Part shown: in pieces, positions 3,285 to 49,517 of the stretch
How the letters are laid out: each line of letters opens with the position of its first letter
Position numbering within the stretch: the first letter of the stretch is position 1
Source of the DNA: Eucommia ulmoides
Taxonomy: Eukaryota > Streptophyta > Magnoliopsida > Garryales > Eucommiaceae
Length of the DNA: 64,000 nucleotides
Assembly (NCBI GenBank): GCA_016647705.1
Contig: CM028334.1
Span: forward strand, 7,411,546 to 7,475,545
Reading direction: 5' to 3'
Notes under the pieces: model-generated
Told to the model about the DNA's origin: nothing
The model's input: the letters and a program-made list of their open reading frames with translations, nothing else
The model's database searches: none
Made by a program: the position numbers and the translations under genes

Positions 3285-4364
3285 CTTGGGTGTTTCAATG
3301 GGAGGTTCCTTATTTGCCCTTAATTTTAAAAAAGTCATCTGCCCAATTGCAACTTGTGTTTTATTCCCACGTATTAAAAAAAGTAGGAGGCCTAATACAT
3401 GTGACTGTACTCTCGCAGTTATATGTATTTAACTTGTGTATAAAATGTTTGTTAGATGTAACAAATATTACACATATACATGTAATTTGTAATTACGTGT
3501 AATTAATATTACACAAATACATGTAATTAATATTACATAGATATATGTAGTATAGTTATACGCGATTTATAACTATTAACTAATTTTAGTTATATGTAAC
3601 TAATATTTATTATAATATGGATTTACTTACCAAGCTCTCTCTACCCTACACAAGTAATACGTGAGCACATGTAGGACTAATACAAAATCAAAAATCAGTT
3701 TAAGGGACTAAGGTTGTGTTTGGGTAAAGGATTTGGAGGAGGGATTTCATTTGAGTAAGGGATTTCAAAATCCCTTTGTAACAAATACCTTGTTTAGGTA
3801 GTAATAAAAAGGGATTTGTCAAATTCTTTTATCTCAAAAAAATAGTGGAAAGAAGGATTTTAAAATTCTTTGGGGAGAGGTTGCATTTGCCAAATCCACT
3901 CCAAAGAGAATTTTGCAAATCTCATCGCTACCATCTTCTTTCGTGACCATCTTCTTCTGTTGATGATCATCTTCTTTGCTTCTCTTTTGCGATCATCTTC
4001 TTCGCTTCTCCTCCTTCTCGCAACGACTACCGCTGACGACTCTCCTTCTGTTGATGATCGCCGACGCAATCGTTTCAGGGTTCACAATTAGGGTTTGCAA
4101 TTGACGATTAGGTTCGCCGACAAGAGCTTTTCCTTTGCTAACGAGAGTTGCCGATGAGAGCTCTTCCTTCTCGCGATTAGGGTTCAAAATCGACAATTAG
4201 ATTCGCCGACGAGAGCTCCTCCTTCTCGCAATTAGGGTTTGCAATCGACGATTAGGTTTGTCGACGAGACTTCCTCCTTTGCCGACGAGAGCTCCTCCTT
4301 CTCGCGATTAGAGTTCGCAATCGATAATTTGGTTCGCAATCGACGATAACTGCCGACGTTCAAG

Positions 4365-4404
<40 letters not shown>

Positions 4405-4830
4405 TTTTATATTTATGATCCCAGAAGTGGGATCAGAAACAGGAAAAAAAACAACCCACCTATGGCCATATTTGTGTGCTATTTGTTTTTGAGGTTTGTG
4501 TTTTAGTTTCAATAAAATTGTTCTAATAATTATGTTTTGTTCCCATAAATTTGTTGTTGAAATTTAGGATTAGAAGAAATACTGTTTACAAATACTTTAC
4601 CTATCCAAATAAGGAAATTGTAAATTACACATTCAAATACTTCAACTCAAACAATTATCCAAATAAGAGATTTGTGAAGTGAAGAAACTTCAAAATCCCA
4701 TCATTTCACAAATGTCTTGAATTTGTCAAATCCCTTACCTAAACACAACCTAAATCCAAACTTATGTTTTAAATATGACAAATAACATATTGTACCCGTT
4801 ATTTGAAACTAATCATCAATTATCTCTATT
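3285..4830 (+). repeat. Dispersed repeat family R1, copy B, split by a transposon
   Basis: Left part 3285-3711 and right part 4751-4830 belong to the same R1 copy, which the PIF/Harbinger-like element 3712-4750 interrupts. Copies D and E show the uninterrupted version of the site (GGACTAAATC or GGATTAAATC on their own strand), which confirms the insertion. Confidence 0.65.
3712..4750. mobile_element. PIF/Harbinger-like non-autonomous DNA transposon (1039 bp)
   Basis: The ends are GGTTGTGTTTGGGTAA on the left and TTACCTAAACACAACC on the right, inverted with one mismatch. TAA flanks both ends (3709-3711 and 4751-4753). The interior holds a tandem array at about 4090-4350 with units of roughly 50-60 bp around the words GCCGACGAGAGCTCCTCC and TTCTCGCGATTAGGGTT. 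Short open frames on both strands of this array are by-products of the repeat. No transposase was seen. Confidence 0.82.
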
Positions 4831-5166: not shown

Positions 5167-6533
5167 ATGGATATGTCTAGAGAGAGATCCATGGGCTCGA
5201 CCAGAGAGAGTTGCAGAAACGAGCTTCGCTCCGCCATCCGTCAGCTCTCCGATCGTTGCCTCTACTCCGCCTCCAAATGGTACCGAGAAAACCCTAAAAA
5301 AATGAACCCCTAATTCACAGTAGTCGAAACAACATTTTCCGAGTTCAACCGACTATTTCCATTACGATTTTCTGTTTGTTTTTCGCAGGGCTGCGGAGCA
5401 GCTGGTAGGAATTGAGCAGGATCCGGCGAAACACCCCCCGTCCCACACCCGATTCCAGCGGGGGAGTTCCAGCATTCGCCGGCGGTATCGTACCGCCACC
5501 GAGGTTATGTCCACTCCTCCCGCCGGTGTGTCTTACGTGTCCACTCCGGTGCCGGATGACGACAGCGACGCCATGGACAGTGATTTCTACCTTCTGGCCA
5601 AGTCTTACTTCGACTGCCGGGAGTACCGGAGGGCGGCTCACGTGCTCCGCGATCAAACTAGCAGAAAGGCCATCTTCTTGAGATGCTATGCCCTATACAT
5701 GGTTAGTTCCAGTTCTCGAATTCTATATATTTCCCTATTAACTTTTTTGACAATGGGGTTCAATTTTTTCCGTTGTTTGCTTATGAGTAGAATGAAAACT
5801 CTTCATGTATGCTGTAAATTGATGCCATTGGCATCTTAGGCCCTGTTTGGTTGTCTAAATCATCCTATTTTATGAATTGATTTGTATATTTCTCGATTTG
5901 AATTTGATTTAGTCAAATTTACATATTTTTTGCTTGAACATAAAAATATACAACAGTTTTAGACTTTTAGTTTAATTAAATATTTAACCATATTATACTC
6001 CAATTACACGAGAAAATGGCATCCAATTTGGATGGGTGTTTTCTATTTTTACAACCAAACAACAACTAATTGAAAAATAGTATAATTTGCGAATTGATGG
6101 ACAGCCAAAAGGACCCTTAATGAATCAGAAAGGTAGTTAAACTTTATTGTGTATACTTCTTAAAACAAAGCAGATTGAATGGATGTATGATATAACGATT
6201 TCGGGGGTAGTTAAGTAGATTCAGTTCTTCATTTTCCGCTAGGCGGATTCACTTTGATCTCTCTGACGTAAATTTTCTATCCTCTTATCGATTGCAAAGA
6301 AAAATAAGCAAATCAAAACTATTAGCTAGGATCTGATGACTGATGAGCATTATTCAAATTGACAAATGCTAATTTTCTGATAAAGGAAGTCACGATGACG
6401 GAAATGCTAGCTATTTATTGGATCACGTTAGTTTTATGCGGTATGAATTGAAATGAAAGTTTGAATTGAAATGTTATTTCCCATTTCTTGAAGCTTTCCT
6501 CTAGTGACCTTGATGTGTTTTTTTTCCTTTTCT

Positions 6534-6593
<60 letters not shown>

Positions 6594-9500
6594 TTTGTGT
6601 CCTGAAATTGGATTGTGATTTGTTGCATCTTGTAACTTGTTAATCTGTGTTAATGGATAAAGAACAAAATCAACGAAGTTTCATAGCGGTTTGGATGTGA
6701 AATCTCTCTCTCTCTCTCTATAGATATATATACCACACACAAACACACACAAGTGCAGGCGTACAAACGCATGCATCTATTTTCTGACGAAGAATGTGAT
6801 GAAAGAAGAAAAATTTAAGTAGATGATACTATGGTTGCATATAACCCTACCAAAATAGATTTGCATATCATAAAGAGCAAATCCAACTTAAATGGACCTT
6901 CTCTCTTGTTTACACTTTAACCTCAAATTGGATAACACTTTTCGATTTTTCTTTTTCTGATTTAGACATTCTTTGCTTGTGCCGATGCGTATCCGTGCAT
7001 AGATATCTTAATGTTATGTGATCTATTTAGGAGTAGCTTAGCCTTAGAACATTGCTAATATGAATGCTCAAAAAAAATAAAAAAAATCATGTTGAAATGA
7101 CGTAAATTCAGAAACCGATCAGGTCTTTTCTTGTGCTAGTTTAACAATTGTACGATGTAGATTCAAGAGTTCTCGAGAAGTACTTAAAAATAAAATTAGC
7201 GTTTTTTTGGCATTTTGTAAAGTACTTTTAAGATCAAGAAAGTAAAAGTAGTTGTTTTTCATTTTTTTATTATTACATTCTAAGAGACGGATGGATGAGG
7301 ACGTCTCTACCCCAATTTGATCAACCCTTTGTGAAATTCATTTGGATCAAGACATCGTTCATATGTACAACACTAAGATATCACCTTTAGGGTATCAAAG
7401 ATTCTTTTGGTTTTCTTTTCTTTTTAAGTAAATGACTTTTTTTTTTTTAAACTATAAAAAGCATTTAAAAAAGCATTGCCAACCAGTGCCTCAGTTGTTT
7501 TTTCAATATGGAGGCATATGCTTTGGAACAGGGGAAGTAATTTTTTCTCATCATTTCTTACAAAATTTCTTCTTGAAGGCCGGAGAAAAACGAAAAGAAG
7601 AAGAGACGATAGAGCTTGAGGGACCACTTGGAAAGAGCGACGCCGTGAACATTGAACTCATTTCCCTCGAAAGAGAGCTATCCACCCTCCGCAAAAATGG
7701 CACAATTGACCCATTTGCCCTCTATCTATACGGCCTCGTCCTCAAAGAAAAAGGCAACCAAAACCTTGCCCGAACCGTCCTCGTCGAATCCGTAAACACC
7801 TACCCTTGGAACTGGACCGCTTGGACCGAACTCCAATCCCTTTGCACCACGATCGAGACAATTAACGGCCTCAATCTCAACAACCACTGGATGAAAGACT
7901 TCTTTCTGGCCAGCGCTTATCAAGAAATCCGCATGCCAAATGAGTCCTTAGTGAAATACGAATCTCTCCGAGGAACATTCGGCTTCAGCAACTACATCCA
8001 GGCCCAAATTGCCAAAGCCCAATACAGCCTTCGAGAATTCGAACAAGTCGAAGTCATATTCGAAGAACTACTGAGAAACGACCCTTACCGGGTCGACGAC
8101 ATGGATATGTACTCAAACGTGCTTTATGCAAAGGAGTGTTTCGCTGCTCTAAGCTATCTTGCTCACAGGGTGTTCTTAACCGATAAATACAGACCCGAAT
8201 CCTGTTGCATAATTGGAAACTACTACAGTTTAAAGGGTCTACACGAAAAATCAGTTATCTATTTCAAAAGGGCGCTCAAATTGAATAAGAATTATTTATC
8301 GGCCTGGACATTGATGGGTCATGAGTATGTTGAGATGAAGAACACACCGGCGGCCATTGACGCCTACCGTAGGGCAGTGGACATCAACCCATGTGATTAT
8401 CGTGCCTGGTATGGGTTAGGACAGGCCTATGAAATGATGGGAATGCCGTATTACGCGTTACATTATTTTAAAAAAGCAGTCTTTTTTCAACCAAGCGATT
8501 CTCGGCTGTGGATTGCAATGGCTCAGTGTTATGAAACGGAGCAGCTTCACATGGTGGAGGAGGCAATCAGGTGTTATAGGAGGGCGTCGAACTGTAATGA
8601 TAGGGAGGCAATCGCTCTCCATCAGCTTGCGAAGCTTCATAGTGAGCTTGGGCAGTCGGAGGAGGCGGCGTATTATTACAAGAAGGATTTGGAGAGGATG
8701 GAGATTGAGGAGAGGGAAGGGCAAAATATGGTGGAGGCTTTGCTTTTTCTTGCGAATTATTGTAAAACGCAAAAGAGGTTGGAAGAGGCGGAGGTTTATG
8801 CTACTCGGCTTCTTGATTATACTGGACCGGTGAGTTTTTTTTAGTCCTTACCAATATATTTTCAACTTATTTTCTAGTCCTTAGTTAACATTAACTATAA
8901 AATCAAATGCAAATTCCATATCTAGTTAGCATTAATTCTATAGGTTTAATCTAGTTATTGTTAACGGAAGGAATAAAAACTTATTTAAAGAACCAAAAAT
9001 GAAAGAGAAAAACAGAGGATAGAAATTATAATTCATTAATTTCCAGGACAATTTACTAAATTTTTTATTTTTTTGGAGGGAAAATCAGTAGATTTTCCTT
9101 GAAACAAGTCAACTATAATTTTTTATCGTCATTTTTTTTCTCTTTATGTTTTAGTCATTCGAATAATTTTTAGTTGTTCAATTAACATCAAGTGGATTGA
9201 TTCTAGAGGCATTCGGTGCGAGGTCCCTTATTTCTTCTTTAATTTTAAAAAAATTCCAGAGAGGGAATTTTTTTTTTGTTTTAGTCCCGCTTATTTTAAA
9301 AAGGCGAAAGCTACGCGTCTGTAGACGCGCGGTTACATGTAATAACTTTGTGTGTAAAATTTTGTTACATGTTACAAGTATTACTACATTTTGTAACCTG
9401 TAACAATTTTGTGTGTAAAATTTTGTTAGATGTAAAAAAATCACACAAAATATATGTAATTAATTATATATAAATAAATATACACAAATATATGTAACTA

Positions 9501-11033: not shown

Positions 11034-13834
11034 GGAATAAAGATATTTTTGGTCCCTCACAAATGTCTCGGGTGTCTAATTGGCCTTTAACTTTTATAAC
11101 TTGACATTTTGGTCCTTGACATTCGAAAATGGTGTTAAATTGACTCTTCGGGCGAATTCTGTTAACAAAATTTGGGAAAAATGGACGAAAATAGCATGTG
11201 AATATTTTGGCCAAGGGTACATGCATCAATTCGCAATCAGGGGAGAAATTTGAAAGGTTCAAACTCACGGGGAGTAAAGTGCAATTAAGACTCTCTCCCC
11301 AACCTCTTGTCTCTTTCTCATCTTCTTCCTCTGAACTCTCAAAAATCGAAATCCAAATCGAAATTCATCTTTCATCGTGATTAATTCAATAGCTATAACA
11401 ATTGACGAACCTCAAATCAAATCCATTGAAGAAGTTTTGAGCTTTGAATCGTAGTTTTCGTGATGATTCATCTTCTGTTCGCGCTTATTTTCGTCGAGAT
11501 GACCCTAATCGTGGTCTTCGTCTTCAAGACGCCTCTTCGGCGGCTCATGATAATTGGACTGGATCGGATCAAGCGCGGAAGGGGTCCAATCGTTGTCAAG
11601 ACTGTCGGTTCTACCGTGTTCGTGGTGATGGCGTCGAGTGTGTACAATGCGGTGAAGATCCGGAACCGTTGGATTGTCGACGGCGATGTAAATCCGACGG
11701 ATCAGGTTCTCTTCGCCAAACATGTCCTTGAAGCTTCTCTCATGGGTAAAAACTTCTCGACGAGCTAGAATAATTTGCTATTGTTAATTCTTCTAGAATG
11801 AGATAATTGCTAATTGCATTGAAATTCATATGCATATATACTCATCATATAGCAACATGGTATTCAATTTTCGATAAAAATGTTTGAATTTCATTTTAGG
11901 GTCCACTTTCGATTTCGACAATGATTGACGATTTCAGACCACATTCACCACTGTCTCCACCATTGCCGAACCAAACACTACCAAACCAAACACCAGTCAA
12001 ATGAAGAAGAGAGAGAGAGAAGGACTTGCAGCGGATCAATCCAACTTGGATTCAGGTAACTCCCGCTATTATCTAATCTATGAATTTTGGGTTTTTTCAT
12101 GATTACAAGTTTTTTTGTGGAAAAATGCTTCGATTAGTTGTTTTAATGGAAACCAATGTGTTCTAAGGTTTAGTTTTGGTGAAATTGTGGTGAAAATTGG
12201 AGGGGTGGAACGAAGTTTTCCCTGTTTTTCTCCTTCCCTTGTTTACACTTTCTTTGAACCTAAAGAACTTCATGCAATTTGCTCACTTTGGGAAGCATTT
12301 GCTCTATCTTCTCACTTCCCAGTGCTTCAAACAACTAATTGCCACATTCGGGAAGGCCTTTGCTTTTGGACAATTTGGTTGTTCAATTGTTCTGTTTCCA
12401 TGTTTCTGTTTCTGGTTTTGTTTCCCATGTTTCTGCTTCTGTTTCTGCTTTTGTTTCCCATGTTTCTGTTTCTGCTTTTGTTTCCCATATTTCAATTTTT
12501 GTTTCCGTTTCTCGTTTAATTTTGTCCATTTTCCGCAGATGGTTTTGGAGACAGTGTTGGAGATGGTAATTCTTTGGCTGAGGCGGCAGTGTAGTGTCAT
12601 TCGGTGGTGGTGTTGTGTTGTTTGGAACGATCAAATGGTTTCGGTTACGGTTTTAGATTTGAAAATCGAAGCGTGTATAGTTTTGGCTTTGATTTTATAT
12701 AAAATTTAAGGGTACAATTTAAAAAATCGACTTCTAAAAAGCTGTCTATTTACGGTTCGGTTTTGAGTTTCGTATATACCTAACATTTTTCTCAGATTTC
12801 GATTTATTTTCAAGATTTTTCACATATTTTTTTTTTCCCAAGAATGAGAAAACAAAAATCCCAAAGCTATTGTCGGTGTTTGGAAATCCATAATAGGCAC
12901 TGCAATGTGATGGTAAAAGCAATGTGATGATACATCTCTTTCTTTGTAATAAAATGAAAAGTAGAGAGTGAAGTTTGTTGTATGGCTCTGTTTGTGTTAA
13001 CTTGAGGTGAATTTGGTTAATGTGGTGTCATTGTTGTTTTTTCTTTTTTTGAATTACACTGTTGATCTATAAATTTTGGGATTAGTGTTATTTGGTTCAC
13101 TTTATTTTTAATTTATTTTTATATTTTTTAATTGTTATTTTTATATTTATTATTAATAACATAATTATGACATCATGGTTTAATAACGATTCACTCGTCT
13201 ACTGAACCGGTGATCCGTGACCTAAAATTTTTTTTGGTTCGATATCTAGTCTGGGTTTTAAAATATTGATTAAATATTTAAATACACACAAAAATAAGGA
13301 TAAAATGAATTTAAAAATTCAAGTGGAAAAAATTTAATGTGTGTGTTTGATGGGTATGTTTGATTTGTGGTTAGTAGTGATGGTGTTAATTAACTGTTTC
13401 AGAAGATAGAGAGAGACAAATGAGGAAGTAGGAGGTAGGAGGAAGACGAAGGGCGGCGACTATGGGATGAGGATGAGGGTGGGGTGGGAGACGATTGTAA
13501 TTGTTCAAAAAATAGTTGTAAAAAGTATATTGTTAAAAATGACTTAATTGTAACAAATTAAGAATGGGTGGGTGTGAAAGGCATGGAAAATAGAAAAAAA
13601 AAAAATATTTTAACCCCTAGAAGTTTAGATGACTTTTCAAATTAACTCTATTGAATTAAAAGACCAAAATACCCTCAATGAAACGTTGACTGTTATTTTG
13701 ATTTCACAGAACCTGATCCAAGGGCCAATTTGACACTATTTTCAAATGTCAAGAGTCAAATTGTCGAGTTGCAAAAGGTTAGAGACCAATTGGACACTTG
13801 GACCACTTGTCAAGGACTAAAAAAGTCTTTATCC
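11034..13834 (+). mobile_element. Pack-MULE carrying a BAP31-like gene fragment (2801 bp)
   Basis: Long inverted ends: left about 11034-11170 and right about 13695-13834. For example TGTCTAATTGGCCTTTAAC on the left pairs with the complement of a right-end TGTCCAATTGGTCTCTAAC. Both termini begin with GG. A 10-bp direct repeat flanks the element (TTTGTTAAAA at 11024-11033, TTTATTAAAA at 13835-13844, one mismatch). Mutator-like elements have long inverted ends and 9-11 bp duplications. There is no transposase. The interior starts with a 5'-UTR-like stretch and the first coding exon of a BAP31-like gene. The rest is diverged low-complexity sequence, including TTTCCCATGTTTCTG repeats at 12390-12500. 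Confidence 0.8.
11463..11960 (+). pseudogene. BAP31-like ER membrane protein, captured first exon and degenerate start of exon 2
   Basis: 11463-11745 reads as 94 codons starting MIHLLFALIFVEMTLIVVF, then KTPLRRLMIIGLDRIKRGRG, VVKTVGSTVFVVMASSVY and NPTDQVLFAKHVLEASLMG. This is the N-terminal membrane half of plant BAP31-like proteins, ER membrane factors in export and quality control. The exon ends at a possible donor (ATGG then GTAAAA). After a candidate acceptor ending at 11899, the bases encode LSISTMID in a frame shifted by one from exon 1, where the family has a segment like LFLALMIDRLHHYI. The coiled-coil half and C-terminal KKXX-type signal are absent. It lies inside a Pack-MULE, so I read it as a captured, non-functional fragment, although exon 1 itself has no stop. 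If not spliced, it would encode 101 aa ending at 11768. Confidence 0.75.
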
Positions 13835-14346: not shown

Positions 14347-15567
14347 ATGGCGTCCTCCTCCCTTAAACGATGGCTAAGGCCTGAGGTTTGTTCCTCTCTC
14401 TCACCCTCTCTCTCTAGGGTTGTGTGTATGTGTGTGCGGATTTGGATATTTTTTTCTTTTTCCGTGATGAAATCTATTCAAATTATTGGCTATAATTCTG
14501 ACCGGAGTATATGTATACGATGTGCGATTGCAGGTATATCCACTTTTTGCGGCGGTAGGGGTCGCCGTCGGAATTTGCGGGATGCAGTTGATCCGTAATA
14601 TCTGCTTCAATCCTGAAGTCAGGTATTCTCTTCCTCACGTGTAAATATTTCCATGGAACATCCGTGTTTATCTCATCTGTTAGTTCGCTTTAGCTGAATT
14701 AGTCAGCATAATTTCTGTTAACGAATTTTCGATCTCTAATCATTGTTTATGTGCAATTGATTTTGTCCGATTGGCCAAAGTAAAATAATCTATTCAATTA
14801 TCTAGTCATTGTCATTAAAATCATTCTCTCAAAGTTTATAATCAAGCTACCATTCAAAATCTCTCTTATTTATTTGCTTAAAGTATAAACCGGTAGGGAA
14901 TGATGGGTCGAAATAGTATCACGCAACTAAAAATTAAGATTGAGAAAAAAATAAAAATTGACAAAAAAATATTTACGTGGTAAAACCCTATATTAATTTG
15001 AGGGAAACATCTACGGGCAAAAAAGAAGAATTTCATTATTGGCAAAAATTTTACAATTTATCTCTATAAATAAGGAGAGAACAAAAACAACTTTCTTTTG
15101 AAATAGGAGAATACAAATCTCTTTATACAAAATAGAAGAAACTAAGAAATGACTACAATGAAGAAATTGTTCAGAAAAATTTGATTATTTTTCTGAACTT
15201 GGAATATCTTTCATCTGTTGCATCCACCCCTATTTGTAGGGGAAGAGTGCAACTCTTGTTCAATAAAAGGTGCACCACCTGCCAACCACCAACACACAAT
15301 CGTCGATATTTTCCCAAACTCATTTTCAATTATTGTGGGCCCAAAATTCCATTTTCAATCATGTGGGCTTCACATATTAGGGATGACAAAAAAAACCGAA
15401 CCGACGGGTAACCGAGAGAAATAGAACTGAATGGTCTGGGTTGAAACCGACTAAATGGTTTTGGTTTTTGGTTTTAAATTTAGAAACCGAAATGCTTTTG
15501 GTTTTGGTTTTAGGATAGTAACAGCGTAACCGAACCGCGTGACCGAAACCGCGAGCCGAACCGTGTA

Positions 15568-47839: not shown

Positions 47840-49517
47840 GGGAAAAAATACATTTTTGATCCCTGGAAGATGGTCAAAGTGTTCAATTGGCCTCTAAGAT
47901 TTGAAATTCGACACATTTGCTTTCAACATTTTAAAATCGTTTTAAATTGGCCCCTGAAACAGATTCCGTTAAGTCAACTAACGGTCAACGTTTCATTAAG
48001 GGTATTTTAGTCTTTTTATTCAAAGGGGTTAATTTTGAAAAGTCATCTAAACTTAAGGGGTCAAAATATTTTTTTTCTATTTCTTTTTTATCCTTCTCAC
48101 TCAATATTTGTTTGCAACTTTTAAATACTCTTTCTACCTCCATATTAATTATTTATTCTTTATTGAAACACAAATCTGGGAACAAATTTAGAACACAAAT
48201 AGGACCCTCCCATATTGAAACAAAAATCTGAAAACAAATTTTGAAGCCGACGAATAGGACCCTCCCATACTCAAACAAACAAATTTCGTCGTCGTTTTCT
48301 TCGTCGGCAAATGTAAATATTGCTAAATTTGAAAGTGTAATTTCAACAACAAATTTATGGGAACGAAACAGAATTTATGGGAACAAAACAACATTTTTTT
48401 TTTGAAAATATTATTTGATTTTTTTTTCATTAAAAGGGGAATTAAAAACCTCAAGAAATATAAAAGAAATAACATATCCAATCAAACCAAATACAAATCT
48501 CTATGAAAGAGGAAATATGAGCAAAACTAAGGAATAATTTCATTATATTCTAAGAATTTTGCGTTAAACATAAGGGAATAGAATATAATCATATTTTTTT
48601 TTTGGCTTCCATATTAAAACACAACATTAACACTAAAACGAACATCAACATCAAAACGAACACCATCACCAAAACGAACATCAACACCAACGAACACCAC
48701 CACTAAAACGAACAACACTAGTGACGAACACTGAAATCGAAAACGAAGAAAACCGCCGAAATCGAACCTTGGGGTTTCGATTTCGAAATCGAAACAGGAA
48801 ATCGAAATCGAAGAATACCGCCGAACATTGCTACCAAAACGACGAACACCATCGAAATCGAACCTAGGGTTTCAATTTCTATTTCGAAATCGAAATAGGA
48901 AATCGATTTCGATTTTGAAATCGAAATCAAAATTGAAGAATACCGCCGAACATCGCCACCAAAACGACGAACACCATTGAAATCGAACCTAGGGGTTTCG
49001 ATTAGGTTTCGATTTCAATTTGAAAATTGAAACTTAGTTTCGAAATCGAAATTGATCAAAATCGAAATCCAAATTGAACCACGGTTTCGATTTCGATTTC
49101 AAAATCGAAATAGAAATAGAAGTAGAGAAGAAGACGAAGACGACGAACGTAATGGTGGCGCCGGCCTACAACAGTGATGGAAGGAAGTAGACTCCCAGAC
49201 GATCGAAGATTTCACCGGATTCGAAAGCGTGGACTCCCGGACAAGCGCGAACGTCGAGTGACCTGCCTTGACGCTGGCTTCAACGATGAATTTCCCGAGG
49301 TATCTTGTCCCTCCGATGATCAGAATCTTAGTCTTTCCGGTGGTGAAGGAGAGTAGAAGCGGAGAGGAAGGAAGAAGATGACCTAAAAAAAAATTAAAGA
49401 AAAAAAATATTTTTCACCCCTTAAGTTTAACAAAATATGTAAATATGTCACATTCTATTAGTAAGATGGAAATGACGCATTTACCCTTGGCCAAACGTCA
49501 TGTACTTGTCACGTGAC
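47840..49517 (+). mobile_element. Probable truncated Mutator-like element
   Basis: The left side (47840-48080) begins GGGAAAAAATACATTTTTGA and continues with AAGTGTTCAATTGGCCTCTA, matching the terminus of the Pack-MULE at 11034. On the right, about 49416-49517 contains the inverted counterpart of the inner part (CACCCCTTAAGTTTAAC against the left TAAACTTAAGGGGTC), but the outer terminus and target duplication are missing. The interior holds a degenerate tandem array of about 123-bp units (48740-49030, word ACGACGAACACCAT). I infer a deletion of the right end. Confidence 0.45.

Follow-up and report, generated by a model that had tools for sequence, protein, structure and literature searches.

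Long inverted ends (TIRs) of 100-500 bp, together with flanking repeats (TSDs) of 9-11 bp, are described as the marks of Mutator-like elements and Pack-MULEs (PMC3310237). The Pack-MULEs of rice, tomato, Arabidopsis and maize are described as non-autonomous, multicopy elements with TIRs and TSDs of these sizes, which have captured a gene fragment from a GC-rich part (PMC3310237, PMC4858842). Two further groups also come close to the element reported here: the PM-ZIBP family of tomato, in which a single captured fragment was amplified, there to 14 copies (PMC3310237), and the KI-MULE and Kaonashi ULP-like MULEs, which are MULEs with a captured coding segment (PMC13317346, PMC8277862).

The element that we analyzed lies at 11034-13834 of a 64,000-nucleotide stretch of Eucommia ulmoides DNA, called the window throughout, and it resembles the Pack-MULEs of rice, tomato, Arabidopsis and maize in all of the respects just named. 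It differs from them in its donor, a BAP31 gene, and in that its sublineage is chimeric with sister elements that carry no BAP31. PM-ZIBP differs in that 13 of its 14 copies are reported with tandem TIRs and its fragment comes from a zinc-ion binding protein, while the KI-MULE and Kaonashi elements are described as carrying a separate gene with a Ulp1 protease domain, whereas here an exon fragment is carried without family-wide constraint. The Pack-MULE is a known kind of element, and this one, with the first exon of BAP31, is a well-dissected new example of it; no paper on a Pack-MULE with BAP31 or B-cell receptor-associated protein was found in the open-licence literature searched.

Ends, flanks and family of the element

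The TIRs of the window element are identical at 104 of 139 columns of a local alignment (11037-11171 against 13695-13832), bearing out the inverted ends of about 140 bp that an earlier note on this DNA had described. At 75%, this identity is lower than in the 11 other elements measured (77-89%). The 10-bp flanking repeat with one mismatch that the same note had claimed is also present (TTTGTTAAAA/TTTATTAAAA), and an equally good pair was found for only 0.3% of 2000 random end pairs taken from the same stretch and searched by the same method. The flank test was applied to 12 family elements with both ends placed, seven with BAP31 (the window copy included) and five without, with small offsets allowed; four BAP31 copies whose 3' end was truncated or unplaced (C14a, C8, C3a and C5a) were left out. 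In 11 of the 12 elements, the best 9-11 bp pair had at least 8 matches, the exception being C3b (7/9), and the TSDs differed among the seven BAP31-carrying elements. Relatives of the TIR occur elsewhere in the genome, which was searched over 946.7 Mb in 391 contigs (C1-C17 chromosome-sized, 43-80 Mb; C18-C20 0.25-0.5 Mb): 40 matches were scored, the window TIR itself included, among 486 first-look candidates. The window element is a member of a larger Mutator-like (MULE) family.

Further features were seen around the element. A second stretch in the window, at 47840-48089, matches the 3' end of this family at 80% identity (48089-47846) and has the outer end GGGAAAAAATACATTTTTGATCCC; the same search returned no partner end for it. 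Upstream of the element, a 470-aa open frame at 7432-8844 resembles the APC8/CDC23 subunit. About 0.5 kb downstream, a small gene begins (14347-14385 onward), whose first exons were read by eye as MASSSLKRWLRPE / VYPLFAAVGVAVGICGMQL and which resembles the gene for an MLRQ-like subunit of plant NADH-ubiquinone reductase. The element lies upstream of this small gene, in its upstream region.

Table 1. Features of the BAP31-carrying element and its flanks, in window coordinates.
Feature	Positions	Strand	Basis
Left TSD, TTTGTTAAAA	11024..11033		9/10 match to right flank
5' TIR, ~140 bp, begins GGAATAAAGA	11034..11173	+	104/139 against reverse complement of 3' end
Captured BAP31 5'UTR, 12 bp shorter than C54	11317..11462	+	aligns to C54 (L029) 4323-4480
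Captured BAP31 exon 1, open, 19/283 bases differ from C54	11463..11745	+	alignment to C54
Start of captured BAP31 intron 1, internal 119-bp deletion (C54 4777-4895)	11746..11892	+	alignment to C54
Filler shared with sister elements, not BAP31; contains the claimed exon 2 at 11900	11888..12625	+	five BAP31-less elements, query 855-1592 in pieces; junction ATTTC
Remaining interior, in pieces common to other family members; four longest open frames without transposase family	12383..13694	+	sequence comparison, Pfam
3' TIR	13695..13834	-	TIR alignment
Right TSD, TTTATTAAAA	13835..13844		flank comparison

Donor gene and captured segment

A whole-genome protein search with exon 1 as the query gave 17 matches, which correspond to 11 family elements, C8 being matched in two separate pieces, and to five host genes that resemble BAP31. 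The host gene on contig C54 has 95% protein identity to the window exon; the other four are only 37-58% identical, indicating that the donor was the C54 gene or its recent ancestor. The C54 gene is intact, with a complete CDS of 221 codons in two exons: exon 1 at 4481-4763 of L029, a GT...AG intron, and exon 2 from 6020, 1256 bp beyond the end of exon 1, with the stop ending at 6402. This is the intact BAP31 parent that the earlier reading implied, and its intron is at the same place. In Pfam, the C54 protein (208 residues given) matched Bap31_Bap29_C at 35.1 bits (cut-off 30) and scored 14.4 bits with the transmembrane model Bap31, below the cut-off of 22.7; exon 1 alone gave no Pfam match, even at an E of 10. 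No family TIR was seen in the 9.9 kb of sequence that includes the C54 gene.

Taken together, the elements match C54 4311-5047 (~737 bp), made up of exon 1 with 170 bp of sequence 5' to it and 284 bp of the intron that follows. Exon 1 is present in 11 elements at different sites, with the captured segment either whole or trimmed. Between the window copy and C54, identity is 91% over the UTR and exon and 94.9% over the retained intron piece. The open BAP31 exon of 94 codons followed by a donor site, as originally claimed, is indeed found at 11463-11745, with a GT donor and the same splice phase as the parent. The GC content of exon 1 is 53%, compared with 40% for the UTR, 29% for the intron and 35% for the window, which agrees with the reported tendency of Pack-MULEs to contain GC-rich gene parts (PMC4858842, PMC8277862).

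The 11 copies fall into different layouts. The window copy, C14a, C14b and C8 retain C54 4323-4776 and 4896-5031, with 119 bp of the intron deleted; C12, C3a, C3b, C5a and C2 have an insertion of ~0.2-0.5 kb in the UTR; both the deletion and the insertion are absent from C1 and C5b. In the C2 copy (L033), the UTR insertion is ~460 bp long, differs in sequence from the 0.2-kb insertion of the four other copies, and contains intron-like GTAATA and TTTTTCAG stretches; it is possibly a second captured gene start. A tree of the captured segment was star-like, with a support of 82 for the window copy and C14a and of 12-58 elsewhere, and it did not place C14b and C8 with the window copy. The putative window sublineage (window copy, C14a, C14b and C8) is named here on the basis of the shared 119-bp deletion and junction only.

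Decay of the captured exon

At each exon site, the base found in most of the 11 copies served as the reference for polarizing changes, in place of Ka/Ks against the parent alone. In the exon, C54 differs from the element consensus by two amino-acid-changing and seven silent differences, and Ka/Ks against C54 alone could mislead because part of these differences may reflect the parent's own constrained evolution. Columns 4400-4425 of copy C2, in the non-coding UTR, were excluded from change counts and rates, as they are misaligned by an insertion.

Taken across the whole family, the exon decays neutrally. Among the distinct exon changes in the 11 copies, 43 of 117 were silent, with 42.8 expected, and when changes were counted per copy the figures were 64 of 171 and 64.8. 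Context rates were much alike across UTR, exon and intron (CG 0.124/0.128/0.103; CHG 0.070/0.084/0.099; CHH 0.045/0.060/0.056; A+T sites 0.007/0.013/0.011), and C>T/G>A changes in the CG context were the fastest. Transition rates for non-coding, silent and amino-acid-changing sites were 0.120/0.116/0.109 in CG, 0.073/0.043/0.131 in CHG, 0.039/0.062/0.043 in CHH and 0.004/0.010/0.009 at A+T sites; the smaller classes gave uneven rates, and amino-acid changes were not consistently rarer. Divergence from C54 was 6-13% in the exon and 0.7-4.8% in the retained intron, the exon being higher in all 11 copies, as fits the many fast-changing CG sites that it contains. Most MULE-derived putative genes in Oryza are likewise reported to have evolved neutrally (PMC4858842).

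The ATG and open frame are kept in six of the 11 copies (window, C14a, C1, C5b, C12 and C5a); the start has been lost in C14b, C3a and C3b, a stop is present in C14b and C2, and C8 has a 4-bp deletion. Neutral decay would be expected to produce 0.08-0.40 stops per copy, and 0.19 in the window copy. With only ~0.2 stops expected in the absence of selection, in a family that decays neutrally, the open frame is the outcome that chance would give, and the argument that the earlier note had drawn from the stop-free exon is uninformative.

Two copies could nevertheless be under constraint. The window copy has three amino-acid and seven silent changes and C14a has four and nine, when 8.5 amino-acid changes were expected in each. 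Pooled, 14 of their 19 distinct changes are silent, where 7.3 were expected by context (P 0.0014-0.0015). The excess stays after C>T is split from G>A (14 of 19, 7.7 expected, P 0.002), which rules out strand-biased C>T as its cause. The corrected P was 0.030 and 0.035 in these two models when 11 copies and 55 pairs were considered, and 0.006 and 0.012 when 11 copies and four sister pairs were considered. These counts would favor the idea that both copies have been kept as a working, constrained small membrane protein made of the first 94 BAP31 residues and a short new tail; the predicted product of the window copy is 101 aa long without splicing and 103 aa long when the acceptor-like site at 11898-11899 is used. 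Against this, the pair was chosen after looking, and the window copy alone, a test set beforehand, gave a P of 0.07-0.09. The signal is weaker in the changes private to the two copies (9 of 13 silent, 4.9 expected, P 0.018), and each copy would need to be under constraint separately. Moreover, the nine other copies are neutral (34 of 104 silent, 37.9 expected), and C8 shows the opposite, with 5 of 27 silent and 10.7 expected. The constraint signal in these two sequences is suggestive only, and we consider a working protein of this kind improbable, at perhaps the level of an outside chance. Slightly less probable still is the fuller proposal that, in a family otherwise dying out, these two copies turned into genes under constraint that encode a truncated BAP31 membrane half, which might act on the full-length protein.

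Recombinant joint, interior and proposed history

The degraded start of exon 2 after a good acceptor that the earlier note had recognized is not borne out. Joint capture of exon 1, intron 1 and a decayed exon 2 start would account for the TTTTAG acceptor-like site and the short AATGAT(T/A)GAC likeness at 11900. Against such a capture, five sister elements with the same ends but no BAP31 match carry the window sequence from 11888 on (query 855-1592, in pieces), and the parental exon 2 starts well over a kilobase past exon 1. The likeness itself is near chance: the score of window 11895-12009 against the beginning of C54 exon 2 was reached at the DNA level by 98 of 1000 dinucleotide shuffles, and at the protein level the three frames were matched by 43, 28 and 275 of 500 shuffles. 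In a search with the whole C54 protein (E <=0.01), exon 2 was located in each of the five host genes, whereas no match to it came from any of the 11 elements, although this search alone could miss a piece of ~40 bp; several of its element rows extend slightly beyond exon 1, some of them through intron stops. The BAP31-less sisters, the shuffles and the protein search together rule out exon 2 as captured BAP31, and we give its capture next to no credence. The claimed exon 2 is best read, from these comparisons, as a coincidence at a recombination joint. The joint reads ATTT(C/T)GTTTTAGGG in the BAP31-less elements, AATTTCTGAG in C54 and ATTTC(A/G)TTTTAGGG in the window sublineage, a comparison that places the switch within the shared ATTTC. 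In animal TIR transposons, captured segments are described as having microhomology at joints of this kind (PMC8277862).

Each of the 11 copies has intron 1 sequence after exon 1, and its 135-149 retained bases differ from C54 at 1-7 places, indicating that genomic DNA was copied and not cDNA; the capture of a genomic segment with its intron, as originally proposed, stands. A processed BAP31 retrocopy lying within unrelated repeats is ruled out by this retained intron, and with TIRs and TSDs also in existence it has virtually no chance of being correct.

The source of transposase was sought in the interior and in the genome. In Pfam, the four longest stop-to-stop frames of 11880-13834 contained no transposase family, the one weak match being below cut-off and to an unrelated model; in the longer copies C1, C5b, C12, C2, C3a and C5a, up to four of the longest frames (>=60 codons) per stretch were judged for transposase by eye only. 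Within the interior, 12621-13330 is matched in pieces by a repeat-like locus on C14. MULE-domain loci are many, with 150 scored among 2936 candidates. Among the 40 of 486 TIR candidates and 150 of 2936 MULE-domain candidates scored, none could be recognized as an autonomous partner with these ends, the nearest pair being 137 kb apart. Fifteen of the 150 scored loci are alike, each scoring 67.5 bits and having an open frame exactly 757 codons long (e.g., G000:C12:6536296-6536601), a uniformity that suggests recent amplification of an autonomous MULE here.

The analysis establishes the parent gene, the limits of the captured segment, its copies, the recombinant junction and the family-wide neutral decay. 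The history that we propose from them, and hold with high confidence, is that of a non-autonomous MULE of which one ancestor captured ~737 bp of the C54 BAP31 gene. In a presumably single capture, this ancestral element would have copied genomic DNA spanning the 5'UTR, the GC-rich exon 1 and ~280 bp of intron 1, perhaps via template switching or gap repair. The captured segment then transposed to at least 11 sites, probably with the help of a transposase that an autonomous relative elsewhere in the genome provided in trans. Within the window sublineage, the intron piece lost 119 bp, and the element became joined, at the shared ATTTC, to the interior of a BAP31-less sister element. The copies subsequently decayed mostly through C and G transitions, fastest in the CG context; they may be methylated, since the mutation spectrum is as expected of methylated DNA.

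Together, these data provide a worked case within one genome, from the parent and the limits of the capture to eleven copies, a sublineage with a recombinant junction and a control based on the mutation spectrum. An open captured exon tells almost nothing about function where only ~0.2 stops are expected, and CG-driven decay can drive a GC-rich exon to diverge faster than its own intron. Protein-coding Pack-MULEs have been called rare (PMC8277862); should the signal seen for the window copy and C14a hold, these two would be among the few.
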